Position numbers and translations under genes: made by a program
Assembly: GCA_005877505.1 (NCBI GenBank)
Contig: VBOO01000018.1
Span: 1-36,582, forward strand
Source of the DNA: Nitrospirota bacterium
GTDB taxonomy: Bacteria; Nitrospirota; Nitrospiria; Nitrospirales; NS-4
Direction of reading: 5' to 3'
DNA length: 36,582 nucleotides
Notes under the pieces: generated by a model
Database searches by the model: none
The model's input: the letters and a program-made list of their open reading frames with translations, nothing else
What the model was told of the DNA's origin: nothing
Part shown: piece by piece, positions 22,087 through 34,213 of the stretch
How the letters are laid out: each line of letters starts with the position of its first letter
How positions within the stretch are numbered: position 1 is the stretch's first letter

Positions 22087-22644
22087 ATGCCGCAAGCGTC
22101 GCCGGCGGACATCGGCCGGGAGCTCTCCGACCTGGCCTTCGGCATTGTCGAACAGAACTGGCTGGAGCAGCACATCGGCAAGGTGATGGACTTGAAGAGC
22201 CTCGACCAGCTTCAGCTCAACGTCGCGGAGTGGGAGCTCACCTATCTCATCCTGTTCGCCATCACCAACGGGTGCGGTACGTTTTCCTCCGCGGACTCCG
22301 AGCGCACGACGGCCATCCTCAAGGCGTTTCACTCGGCGCTCCTCTCCCACATCGCGGAGCAGGCCGGACAGGAGGTCGCCGAGGAGCACAAGAAACACCT
22401 GCCCGCCCGGTACCGGCTGTATGGACAGGCGATCGAAGGCGAGGACACGACCAAACCCTATAAGACCCCCTACCGACTGCTCGGAGAGGCAGCCGCGCTG
22501 CAGATACTGGGGAAACCGCTCACGGACCCACACGACGGCGACAACTTCCGCGAGACGATCAAAGTGATCTTTACCGAGGTGCGTGAGGCGGCGATCAAGG
22601 TCCTGAGCTTCCAGCAGGCTCAGGCAATCGAAGGGAAGGCGTAA
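22087..22644 (+). CDS. Hypothetical protein, 185 aa
   Basis: ORF 3 nt after the preceding stop. Confidence 0.65.
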   Translation: MPQASPADIGRELSDLAFGIVEQNWLEQHIGKVMDLKSLDQLQLNVAEWELTYLILFAITNGCGTFSSADSERTTAILKAFHSALLSHIAEQAGQEVAEEHKKHLPARYRLYGQAIEGEDTTKPYKTPYRLLGEAAALQILGKPLTDPHDGDNFRETIKVIFTEVREAAIKVLSFQQAQAIEGKA

Positions 22645-22653
22645 GCGTAAGGC

Positions 22654-23082
22654 ATGGACTTCGACATCGGCTCCAATCACTACCGGAACGCGGCGCCCAG
22701 CATCGAAATCGAAGGCATGCCGCACCTCTCGTTCGAACACAATCGTCGCTACAACGAGATGACGTTGAGGGGGTTTCTCTACGACACGAAAGGCAACCTG
22801 GTGGGGAAGATCGTGGAAAGCAGCCTCGCTATGAACGTCCAAGGCGAATTCGAGATGCGCTCAGAGCCCTTGGTCGTGAAGGTGCTGAGACGCGAGACCG
22901 AGGAGGTCATCTTGGAAGTGAAGTTCCTGGACAAGAACCGCGTCCAGATCCACAAGGCCAAGCTGTACTCCATCAAAGGCCGCCCCTTCGAGGCGACCCC
23001 GAAGCACTGGAAGATCGGCGACGACCCGCCCCACAGCGGAGAAGACATGGACTGCGGCAGCAACGCGGTCTCGCTGAAATGA
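22654..23082 (+). CDS. Hypothetical protein, 142 aa
   Basis: ORF in same cluster with beta-rich-looking composition. Confidence 0.65.
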   Translation: MDFDIGSNHYRNAAPSIEIEGMPHLSFEHNRRYNEMTLRGFLYDTKGNLVGKIVESSLAMNVQGEFEMRSEPLVVKVLRRETEEVILEVKFLDKNRVQIHKAKLYSIKGRPFEATPKHWKIGDDPPHSGEDMDCGSNAVSLK

Positions 23083-23117
23083 ATCTTGTCGCGGGTGGGG
23101 CACCCGTTGCTCTTTGA

Positions 23118-23230
23118 GCGGGTCCTGCCTCCGCATAGCCCAGCGCATCTGGGCGTTTCGCCGTCGAGGCCCCGCAGACCCGGCTGTACGCCCCGTGCTG
23201 CATCTGGGCGCCCATGCGGCGTCACCCGCT
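23118..23230 (-). repeat. ~113 bp dispersed structured repeat, left inverted copy
   Basis: Reverse complement AGCGGGTGACGCCGCATGGG...GTACAGCCGGGTCTGCGGGGCCTCGACGGCGAAA...ATGCGGAGGCAGGACCCGC aligns to 24648-24762; additional partial modules at 23099-23117 and 23234-23270. Confidence 0.75.
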
Positions 23231-23347
23231 CAATTGCAACGGGTCGAAACGCCGTCGCAGCCCCGCGGACATCGCGCTTCGATCTCGGCAGCCGTAACAC
23301 AGACACTTGAGCCAATAAAGTTGCAAGGGCGCCATCGGTTGCAAGTG

Positions 23348-24121
23348 TTAGATAGCAACCCCATTTGCGCGTGCAAATGAGACGATGTCAACCGAAGGCA
23401 CCCAGAGTGAAATTGCCAAACGGGCTGTGAGCCTTGTGGCCCCCTTGTTCTGTATCTGATTCGCTCCTTCGATGACAGAGGCCACATGCATGCCGAACAC
23501 CAGAGTGTCAGCAAGAAAACCAGGACAGCCTGAAGATCCCGAATACATGAGCGCATCTGTTTCGTAAAAGTCCAGGGCACGACCTGAAGGATGCTGCTGC
23601 GTATGAAAGGCCGAGACGTTAGCGCCTTGGAATCGTTCGGTCAGATTGACCACACGCCCAACAGGGTTGAACACCACACTCGCTAGTGGAAAACCCAGCG
23701 AACCACAACTTGTCCCAATGGGGACCCTGGCCGTGTTCAGCGCTACTGTCACGGACGAGCGCGGATTTTGTAAACGTAGGAGCGCAACGTCTCGCACTCT
23801 GTCTTCGGCGATCAAGGATGCACGCTCCATCGGTTGACCAATGTCTGGGGCACGGATAGCTTCAAACTGCGTGTGAACCGGCTTAGTTGGATCGTTCTCA
23901 ACGTGAACAAAGTGTGCCGCCGTCACAAGAACGCCAGGCGAAATCATGAATGCGGTGCCGTTGGTTGCATTGACCTGGTTCGGCGCGACTTGGGAGACGC
24001 CCAACACGCCGTACACGGATGCGCGAACCGTCGCAGAACTCTTCGCGAACAAGTGTCCCTCTCGCTGATTGTCTAACTTGAATTGAGTTGGCGAACTGTC
24101 GAGTTTTATTACTCTGCCCAA
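23348..24121 (-). CDS. Trypsin-like serine protease
   Basis: Triad-like motifs TAAHFV (His), RDVALLRL (Asp), SGSSGCPGF (Ser). Confidence 0.85.
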   Translation of the reverse strand: MGRVIKLDSSPTQFKLDNQREGHLFAKSSATVRASVYGVLGVSQVAPNQVNATNGTAFMISPGVLVTAAHFVHVENDPTKPVHTQFEAIRAPDIGQPMERASLIAEDRVRDVALLRLQNPRSSVTVALNTARVPIGTSCGSLGFPLASVVFNPVGRVVNLTERFQGANVSAFHTQQHPSGRALDFYETDALMYSGSSGCPGFLADTLVFGMHVASVIEGANQIQNKGATRLTARLAISLWVPSVDIVSFARANGVAI

Positions 24122-24131
24122 AACGTTTCTT

Positions 24132-24554
24132 TTAGTCCCTCTCCGCCCACACGCGCCATGAGGTCTTCTTATAAGTACCCTTATCCGTGTTGATGATCCA
24201 GATTTCCAATTCCGGAAAGGCTTCAGCTAGACGTTTCCAGGCAACGCGGTGCTGTTTGGCCCTAGCAGGAAGGCCGGTTTCCGACTTATGGGAAAGCGCG
24301 AGGACAAGATGCTTGGCTTCATCGTTGAGACGAGAAACCACTCGGAAAAAGCCCTCATAAAAGTCCTTGGCTCTAGCAGGGCCAGTCTCCTTATAACCTA
24401 TGACTTCGATGTAGTAAGCCGTCTCCCCCTTTCTTGCCACAATGTCAACTCCGGTCTGACCATGCTCTCTTCTGGGAGTCAGAGCAAAGTCATCGCGTTC
24501 AAGTATCCCCTGAAGGCATTCCTCTACTTCGACATTAGCCACAGACTTTGGCAT
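24132..24554 (-). CDS. Putative PD-(D/E)XK-superfamily (Mrr-like) nuclease
   Basis: Core GVDIVARKGETAYYIEVIGYKE followed by ARAKDFYEGFFRVVSRLNDEAKHLVLAL; located 10 nt upstream of the protease gene. Confidence 0.6.
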   Translation of the reverse strand: MPKSVANVEVEECLQGILERDDFALTPRREHGQTGVDIVARKGETAYYIEVIGYKETGPARAKDFYEGFFRVVSRLNDEAKHLVLALSHKSETGLPARAKQHRVAWKRLAEAFPELEIWIINTDKGTYKKTSWRVWAERD

Positions 24555-24647
24555 TTGTGATCATCAATTTTTTGTTCTTTGAATCCTCTGGAGCGTACAT
24601 CGAACTCTCGGAAAAATCTATCGACGCTGGGGAGATGTCCAAGGCTA

Positions 24648-24762
24648 AGCGGGTGGCGCCGCATGGGACCCGGGCGGAGCGGAAGAGCCTACAGCCGAGT
24701 CTGCGGGGCTGCGACGGCGAAAGGATCTGAGCACGTCCGGGTGATGCGGTGACAGGACCCGC
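24648..24762 (+). repeat. ~115 bp dispersed structured repeat, right copy (inverted relative to 23118-23230)
   Basis: AGCGGGTGGCGCCGCATGGG...CTACAGCCGAGTCTGCGGGGCTGCGACGGCGAAA...ATGCGGTGACAGGACCCGC. Confidence 0.75.
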
Positions 24763-24770
24763 AACCAGAG

Positions 24771-25574
24771 CTACTTCGCCGATTGGGCGCAGCGGAAGCC
24801 GATGAAGGCGTTGCGGGTCTCCGGCGCAAGCTTGGAGGTGCGGCTGCCTGATAAGAGATACACCGGCATGTCGGACCACGAGCCGCCCCGCACCATCCTG
24901 TACTGACCAGTTCGCGGCCCCTGGGGGTTATTCTCGGGGCTCTCTCTGTAGTATTCGCCGTCATACCAGTCCTGGACCCATTCCGCGACATTCCCAGCCA
25001 GATCGAAGGCCCCGTACGGCCCTTGACCTCCTGGATAGCTGCCGACGGGCTTAAGAAGATCGTAAGAGAATTTGCTCATCTGTCCGAACAGAGCCAGCGT
25101 GGCGCTTGGTTTGGTCTCCCCCCAGGGAAACGGCCGCTCGTTCGTCCCGCGGGCGGCCTTCTCCCACTCAGCCTCGGTCGGAAGCCGCCGCCCGTTGATC
25201 CGGCAGTAGGCGTCGGCATCGACCCAGGTCACTCCGACGACAGGACGATTGGAATGGTCAGGAAACTTGACCAGGTCCCAGTTCAACGGCTTCTGCCATC
25301 CCGCGAATTCAAGGAACTTGGCGTACCGTTCCGTCGTGATCTCGTACCTATCGAGATAGTACGCGTCCAGGTACACCTTGTGGCGGGGCTGCTCGTCGTC
25401 CAGCCCCAGACCCTCAGGCAGCCCCATCCAGAATTCCCCGGCCGGCACCAGGACCATGGGCGAGCCGTCCTTGGCGATGATTTCCTTCGTCAGGTCACCC
25501 TCCGCTGCCATCGCCAACGAGAGGCCAGCCGCTAGCAGAAACACGACCACCCATGTCAGCTTCGGGATCCGCAT
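24771..25574 (-). CDS. Formylglycine-generating-enzyme (SUMF1/FGE) domain protein, exported
   Basis: FWMGLPEGLGLDDEQPRHKVYLDAYYLDRYEITTERYAKF; GRRLPTEAEWEKAARG; GNVAEWVQDWYD; RGGSW; FIGFRCA. Confidence 0.92.
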   Translation of the reverse strand: MRIPKLTWVVVFLLAAGLSLAMAAEGDLTKEIIAKDGSPMVLVPAGEFWMGLPEGLGLDDEQPRHKVYLDAYYLDRYEITTERYAKFLEFAGWQKPLNWDLVKFPDHSNRPVVGVTWVDADAYCRINGRRLPTEAEWEKAARGTNERPFPWGETKPSATLALFGQMSKFSYDLLKPVGSYPGGQGPYGAFDLAGNVAEWVQDWYDGEYYRESPENNPQGPRTGQYRMVRGGSWSDMPVYLLSGSRTSKLAPETRNAFIGFRCAQSAK

Positions 25575-25725
25575 CAACTGAACGATGAATGATGAATTCT
25601 GAATTCAGCATTCTGCATTCTGCGTTTCAGTCTAGCACACGCCCCGCTTGACTTCATGGCACCCTGCTCATATAGTGACTCCACTCCTCATGCACGTGCG
25701 CTCCGAACACCTCACTCCATAACCC

Positions 25726-30387: not shown

Positions 30388-30669
30388 ATGGCGCGCCTCA
30401 AGCTGCAAGGAAAGGAATACCATCTGGAGAAAGAGGACATTGTCAATGCGGTCAAGAGGTTTGAACCTCAGCCAACACACGATTTCACGATCAGTATCGA
30501 TGGGACCTATTACCCCATTAAACAGGCGATCAGCGCCGCCACGGGGCTCCCGATCGAAACGTTCTCAGGCTCCGAAGCCCATGAATTCCTGCGAAAGCTC
30601 GGCTTTGTCATCGAGAATTACGAGCAGCGCATGCGAAAGCGTAAGAAAAGAAAAAGTCTCCACTTTTGA
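30388..30669 (+). CDS. Hypothetical protein, 93 aa (possible small DNA-binding-like domain)
   Basis: MARLKLQGKEYHLEKEDIV...YYPIKQAISAATGLPIETFSGSEAHEFLRKLGF; basic tail. Confidence 0.65.
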   Translation: MARLKLQGKEYHLEKEDIVNAVKRFEPQPTHDFTISIDGTYYPIKQAISAATGLPIETFSGSEAHEFLRKLGFVIENYEQRMRKRKKRKSLHF

Positions 30670-30716
30670 TCCAGACCTTTCCCCTTGGCTCCCGCCTGAC
30701 AAAGTTTGAGGTGGTC

Positions 30717-31721
30717 ATGTCAGACATACCTCCTTTGAATGTCCTCATCGCCAACGAGCAGGCTCAAGATGCCAAGGACGTGACTTCGAGTCTGCGTGCA
30801 TTTTTTCCTGACAGCCGGATTGAGGTGGTGTACTCCGCAGACGAAGTGCTGCGCTGGGCAGCCAAGTGTGAGTGGCATACTATCCTTGCTGATGTGGGCT
30901 TATTCCGTCACAGTGGGCTTGGGACGCTGACCGAGCTCAAACGAAAAGCACCAACGGCAATTCTTATTATTCAAGCCGATTGCAACGACATGACACTTGG
31001 CATGCAAGTTCTGCGCTTTGGCGCAGATTTTTGCGTAGCGAAGAACTCTCCTGCATTTTTGACTGAATTGCCCTTTGTCCTGCGAACACTGTTGAGGAAT
31101 CAAGAGCTAAGCGCGCAGGTGAATGCAGCGACAGATCGAGTCCGGCGCCTGGAGGAGAAAGTGTCACGCACGCAGGCGGAACGGCAGTCCCTCGTTGAGC
31201 AACTCGACCAAGTACGCCAACAGCGCACACAGTTGCAGGGACGCCTTCACAGCCAAGAAGTTGAGTTATCGCAGACAAAAGAGAAGAAGCAACTGCTCCT
31301 GGACCAATGGGAGAAGATCCGCCAAGCGCACACTCAGGTGGAAGAAGATCTCCAGCGGGTGACAGGGCAGTTGTCTCAGGAACGTGGAGAACACCGGGCA
31401 TACAGGGAGCAGCTTGAGAGGCTCCGACAAGAGCGCGACCAGTTGCAAGAACGACTGCTCCATATAGAGGGGGAGAAACAGTCGCTCCTGACACAGTTGG
31501 GACAAACGCGGCAAACGTATGCGCGGTTGGAGGAAGGACTCCAGCGCCACGACGCAGAGCTGTCTCTTGAACGGACCGAAAAGCAGGCGTACAGGGAGCA
31601 GCTCGAGAAGCTCCGCCAAGAACGGGACCAGCTGCAGGAGCGACTGTCGCAGACCGAGATGGGAAAGCAGTCACTCCTCACCCGGACATACCCCGGCACA
31701 GGAACAAATCCAGCGCCTTGA
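30717..31721 (+). pseudogene. Receiver-like domain plus long coiled coil, copy 1; reading frame broken near 31675-31700 and continuing in another frame to 32034
   Basis: NVLIANEQ...ILADVGLF...VAKNS receiver-like region; coiled coil continues in frame of ORF 31519..32034 and ends QMEERIKRLEERLLQEHRQ as in copy 2. Confidence 0.7.
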
Positions 31722-33328: not shown

Positions 33329-33346
33329 CACATTGGGAGGTTGATC

Positions 33347-34213
33347 ATGTCAGACATAAGTCCCATCAATATCCTCATCGCCAACGAGCAGGCGCAAGAA
33401 GCCAAGGAAACTGCTTTGAGTCTGCGTGCATTCTTTCCCGAGAGCCGGATTGAGGTGGTGTACTCAGCCGACGAAGTGCTCCACTGGGCAGCCAAATCTG
33501 AGTGGCATACGATCCTTGCTGATGCTGACTTATTTCGTCAGAGTGGGCTGGCGATGCTGACCGAGGTCAAACGGCAAGCGCCTAAGGCAACCATCATAAT
33601 TCAAGCCGATTGCAACAATATGACTCTGGGAACGCAGGTCCTCCAATATGGTGTCGATTTTTATATCGCGAAGAACACTCATGCCTTTTTAAGTGAATTG
33701 CCCTTCGTGCTACGAGCATTTTTGAAGAATCAAGATCTGAATTCGCGGTGGAATGCCGCGAACGAGCGAGTCCTGCGCCTAGAGGAGCAAGTGTCACGAA
33801 TGCAGACGGACCAGCAATCCTTAGTTGAGCACCTCGATCAAGCACGTCTGGAGCGTACCCAGCTGCAGGAACAACTTCAAGCCTACGAAGTTGAGTTATC
33901 GCAGACCAAGGAGAAGAAACAATTGCTTCTGGACCAATGGGAAAAAATCCGCCAAGCGCACGCGACGATGGAGGAAGAATTCCAGCAGGTGACAGGGCAG
34001 TTGACTCACGAACGAGGAGAAAACCAGGCTTACCGCGAGCAGCTTGAGATGCTGCGGCAAGAGCGCGACCAGCTCCAGGAGCAGGTGTCGCTGCTCCAGA
34101 TGGAGAAGCAGACGGTCCCCGCCCAATTGCAGCAAATGCGTCTTGGTCATACACAGATGGAAGAACGGATCAAGCGCCTCGAAGAACGGCTGCTGCAGGA
34201 ACAGCGAGGCTAA
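33347..34213 (+). CDS. Receiver-like domain plus coiled coil, copy 2 (intact)
   Basis: MSDISPINILIANEQAQEAKETALSLRAFFPESRIEVVYSADEVLHWAAKSEWHTILAD, paralogous to 30717. Confidence 0.85.
   Translation: MSDISPINILIANEQAQEAKETALSLRAFFPESRIEVVYSADEVLHWAAKSEWHTILADADLFRQSGLAMLTEVKRQAPKATIIIQADCNNMTLGTQVLQYGVDFYIAKNTHAFLSELPFVLRAFLKNQDLNSRWNAANERVLRLEEQVSRMQTDQQSLVEHLDQARLERTQLQEQLQAYEVELSQTKEKKQLLLDQWEKIRQAHATMEEEFQQVTGQLTHERGENQAYREQLEMLRQERDQLQEQVSLLQMEKQTVPAQLQQMRLGHTQMEERIKRLEERLLQEQRG

Follow-up and report, generated by a model that had tools for sequence, protein, structure and literature searches.

Does a putative nuclease gene that directly neighbours a protease gene, with both enclosed by two inverted repeats, represent a mobile module whose products act together in defence or as a toxin? 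This had been proposed from the letters alone for a segment of about 1.5 kb in the window, i.e., the complete stretch of 36,582 nucleotides of Nitrospirota DNA analysed here (Table 1). On balance, we consider it probable that the segment is instead a recently acquired accessory gene pair, in which a solo protein with a PD-(D/E)XK fold lies beside an unrelated protease.

Table 1. Features of the acquired segment and its surroundings (positions refer to the window).
Feature	Position	Strand	Remark
Left flanking conserved gene, 142 aa, hypothetical	22654..23082	+	adjoins FGE-type gene in five relatives
Repeat copy A, ~113 bp, subfamily A	23118..23230	+	dispersed quasi-palindromic intergenic family
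Trypsin-like serine protease gene	23348..24121	-	257 aa ORF, TTG start
PD-(D/E)XK-fold gene	24132..24554	-	140 aa ORF, ATG start
Repeat copy B, subfamily B, same family as copy A	24648..24762	-	97% identical to copies elsewhere
Right flanking conserved gene, FGE-sulfatase (sulfatase-modifying factor-like)	24771..25577	-	domain match

The basic layout was confirmed from the ORF coordinates: both ORFs are intact and co-directional, the nuclease-like gene lies 10 nt upstream of the protease gene, and the 140 aa ORF contains the motif GVDIVARKGETAYYIEVIGYKE. The lower GC content ascribed to the pair likewise holds true (0.511/0.541 for the two genes), with GC3 values of 0.532/0.554 vs. 0.79–0.88 (about 0.85) in the flanking genes. 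An Rfam search of positions 22500–25500 gave no match.

The gene pair is a recent horizontal acquisition, since five relatives (G003, G004, G005, G006, and G007) feature an empty site, where the flanking genes are separated by 9–175 bp without nuclease or protease, and a sixth (G002) carries a different insert. Misassembly at the flanking repeats is less likely, because the longest exact stretches that these share with the other copies compared comprise 47 and 60 bp. In G002, a single repeat copy comes after the left neighbour, and next to it lies a gene for an NTF2-fold immunity protein (PF15631, E 1.5e-20; L062, G002:C232, 176–645), after which the contig ends. The insertion site appears to have taken two different inserts within one genus, and the G002 insert marks it as a possible insertion hotspot.

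For the upstream protein, structure prediction supports the proposed PD-(D/E)XK-like core at the level of the fold. The AlphaFold model based on an alignment of 21 sequences reached a pLDDT of 92.9, with 3 residues below 70 and none below 50, and displays the alpha-beta-beta-beta-alpha-beta core of the superfamily. Foldseek related it with a probability of 1.00 and E-values of 0.005–0.01 to AF2093 (2ph7) and to AVA_3312 (2okf), an fdxN element excision controlling factor, and further structural neighbours are Hjc resolvases as well as YaeQ and MmcB-like proteins. The predicted fold is also shared with Mrr_cat (PF04471), for which the 140 aa protein scored 15.9 bits and thus below the cut-off of 21; this domain was weakly matched by 9 of the 21 family members, and other members reach an E-value of 7.7e-6. 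The sequence similarity of the 140 aa protein to any named family stays below cut-off.

The active site of this protein family is non-canonical. In common with the PD-(D/E)XK superfamily, it keeps the first-helix Glu as well as the core Asp and Glu, and E11, D37, and E50 are each found in 20/21 aligned members. In contrast to the superfamily, the lysine of the ExK motif is absent from every one of the 21 sequences (Ile in 19, Thr in 1, and Val in 1), leaving the D...(D/E)xK catalytic set incomplete. Because this lysine is missing, cleavage may not occur in the 140 aa protein. Displaced catalytic residues are known in the PD-(D/E)XK superfamily, and, as judged from the alignment, R61 (20/21) or K63 (16/21) might stand in for the missing lysine; besides R61, the positions R75, R98, W106, and R108 are strongly conserved (21/21 each). 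Hence, the protein is best described as a predicted fold-level member of the superfamily and a candidate nuclease.

With respect to its distribution, the 140 aa protein belongs to an unnamed, widely scattered, and cross-domain family of solo genes. Searches of 97 further genomes of the order did not detect the gene, and among 396 genomes from the phylum only two others encode a clear homologue (52 and 40% identity). A profile built from three sequences retrieved 25 homologue loci, including these two again, in very different bacteria and archaea. Some of the homologues have conspicuous neighbours, e.g., a DpnI-type restriction gene followed by a small ORF and the nuclease homologue, all in one direction (L082, 4149–5602), MrcB_N and HNH genes (L070), a PDC-S11 candidate (L071), or a divergent Cas9 gene located about 70 bp from the start of the homologue (L087, 4871–8387). 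As individual examples, the restriction and CRISPR neighbours hint that the nuclease-like protein may serve in defence on its own, which is plausible; many other homologues sit among ordinary metabolic genes.

The downstream gene product is a trypsin-like S1 peptidase, as had been suggested from its His/Asp/Ser motifs: the Trypsin_2 domain was matched with 43.6 bits (cut-off 27.6; E 6.6e-11), and the triad H70/D111/S197 is intact in an alignment with remote relatives. Its N-terminus shows no hydrophobic stretch upon inspection and does not resemble a signal peptide, in line with the earlier description. The protein is a stand-alone enzyme of 257 aa comprising the trypsin domain only. Its best PADLOC matches, RT-Protease_XI (E 4e-12) and Avs1b (E 2e-8), concern the trypsin parts of these defence-linked proteins and represent a lead, not membership. 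The structure model is weak (pLDDT 60.5), and its matches to Deg/HtrA protease domains are only supportive. All relatives of the protease are remote (about 30% identity in searches of 98, 396, and 399 genomes), and those inspected are S1 proteases that are larger or of the secreted type, with no such nuclease beside them. When genome and viral collections were scanned with each single protein and plasmids and phages were searched by tblastn, neither protein had a convincing relative, the exception being a trypsin match of 30% on two Arthrobacter/Paenarthrobacter plasmids; a profile scan of viral contigs likewise gave no convincing relative.

Joint action of the two products is not borne out by the genomic neighbourhoods of the homologues, and the recurrent pairing that the earlier reading had set as its own test was not observed. 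An ORF motif scan revealed trypsin-motif genes within 2.5 kb of the nuclease homologues at 0/25 loci, some of these neighbourhoods being shortened by contig ends, and a relative of the protease was found in none of the five nuclease-bearing genomes that were searched as a whole. Moreover, when 88 proteins neighbouring nuclease homologues were run against PADLOC and Pfam, the trypsin family was absent among the 25 most frequent neighbour families listed, and there was no recurrent partner, none occurring in more than three neighbours.

Trypsin-activated nucleases are known from the Hachiman, AVAST, Lamassu, and DRT systems. In these, a metallo-beta-lactamase fold and disordered gating loops characterise the nuclease, and the protease is part of a fusion protein with a defence enzyme, namely HamA, Avs1, LmuA, or RT (Tuck et al., 2025; PMC12799240). 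By analogy with HamMAB and Avs1, infection could render the protease described here active, which would then cleave and unmask the upstream nuclease. The gene order, with the nuclease directly preceding the protease, and the horizontal acquisition are shared with these gated pairs (PMC12799240), and the defence-linked trypsins among the best PADLOC matches point in the same direction. However, the HamM/Avs1a type differs from the present pair in several respects: the upstream protein has a predicted PD-(D/E)XK instead of a metallo-beta-lactamase fold, it is compact and without a disordered insertion that could block the active site, and the protease is neither fused to a sensor or defence enzyme nor accompanied by an adjacent sensor gene. 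Since the nuclease homologues furthermore occur without the protease in the loci and genomes searched, we regard a protease-activated defence pair of this kind as improbable. Even less probable, in our view, is a second and independent form of nuclease immunity under protease control, with a stand-alone trypsin-like enzyme regulating a PD-(D/E)XK-fold protein in place of a metallo-beta-lactamase nuclease. Conflict systems combining NucA with trypsin also resemble the pair in joining a nuclease to a trypsin-like peptidase, but NucA is a nuclease of the HNH superfamily and often occurs with further peptidases and other partners (eLife, 2020; PMC7159879).

Alternatively, both genes could be unrelated housekeeping-like passengers, e.g., a DNA repair or recombination factor and a quality-control protease, without any function in conflict. 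The occurrence of Hjc, YaeQ, and MmcB-like proteins among the structural neighbours, the Deg/HtrA matches of the weak protease model, and the many homologues located among metabolic genes are consistent with this option, but housekeeping genes are not typically distributed so patchily or acquired so recently, and we consider it rather unlikely. As a further option, the pair could form a mobile composite unit ending in the two repeats, which indeed flank it in inverted orientation, and the G002 site, where a repeat precedes the unrelated immunity protein gene, would fit as well. The properties of the repeat family, however, make such a unit highly improbable. In fact, copies A and B are only 75% identical and belong to different subfamilies, most copies sit between ordinary genes without cargo, and no transposase gene lies between the two. 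Matching element-specific terminal repeats, as expected of a composite transposon, are consequently not found at this locus, the family being dispersed throughout the genome. At the junctions, the flanks of the relatives are diverged to an extent that would mask a target-site duplication.

Thus, the inverted arrangement of repeats around the pair stood up to closer inspection but is not specific to it, and the view of the pair as a mobile unit is not supported. The repeat unit of 113–115 bp has sharp ends (GCGGGTCCTG ... CACCCGC) and 19 matches in the source genome, with 13–27 matches per genome in other members of the genus and 3–21 in other members of the family, and it was not found in 13 searched genomes of other families. 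In comparison with shuffled sequence, copy A folds on itself better and copy B does not. Since the flanking copies come from separate subfamilies, and copies at unrelated loci share 97% identity with copy B, the two flanking copies do not constitute the termini of a dedicated element. They may nevertheless have supplied homology for recombination. A transposase for the repeat was not identified, and the single Y1 transposase match of the source genome is located on a contig without a detected repeat copy. Of the toxin genes, represented in this test by the two families PIN and ParE, 2/27 were located within 1.5 kb of a repeat copy vs. 0.8 expected, which is not significant.

Like REP/REPIN-type repeats, the family is intergenic, multi-copy, quasi-palindromic, and limited to one bacterial family among the genomes searched, but it differs in its unit of about 113 bp and about 20 copies per genome. 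An identity as integron attC sites was rejected by inspection, as the GTTRRRY/RYYYAAC ends are absent and most copies have no cargo. The empty site of G007 holds a copy in inverted orientation that matches copy B with 97.6% identity over 84 bp, and orthology of these two was rejected as well, given that copy B is no less similar to copies at unrelated loci. Across the loci examined, the family amounts to 78 matches in two subfamilies, and in several places a partial second copy follows about 12–20 bp downstream.

Returning to the favoured explanation of an acquired accessory pair, the segment would have landed in a repeat-bearing intergenic site. The PD-(D/E)XK-fold protein would move as a solo gene among distantly related bacteria and archaea, and it would most likely act on its own upon DNA that is foreign or altered, in a restriction-like or repair-like manner. 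The trypsin-like protease would be a separate cytosolic peptidase, which arrived or was trapped together with the nuclease-like gene, and joint action would not be needed. Against such independence, the short intergenic spacing, the shared direction, and the similar composition suggest one operon that was acquired together.

Apart from adding one acquired locus, the analysis assembles a small and unnamed family of solo PD-(D/E)XK-fold proteins that spans bacteria and archaea and has a non-canonical active site conserved among its members. Furthermore, it illustrates that adjacency of a nuclease and a protease gene need not imply a module, and the comparison of homologues is what sets the present locus apart from the trypsin-activated nucleases described in 2025. 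The window further contains a second low-GC stretch, in which the ORFs at 30666–31721 and 33341–34213 (GC3 0.61) have near-identical starts (MSDI-P-NVLIANEQAQ-AK) and are apparently duplicated.
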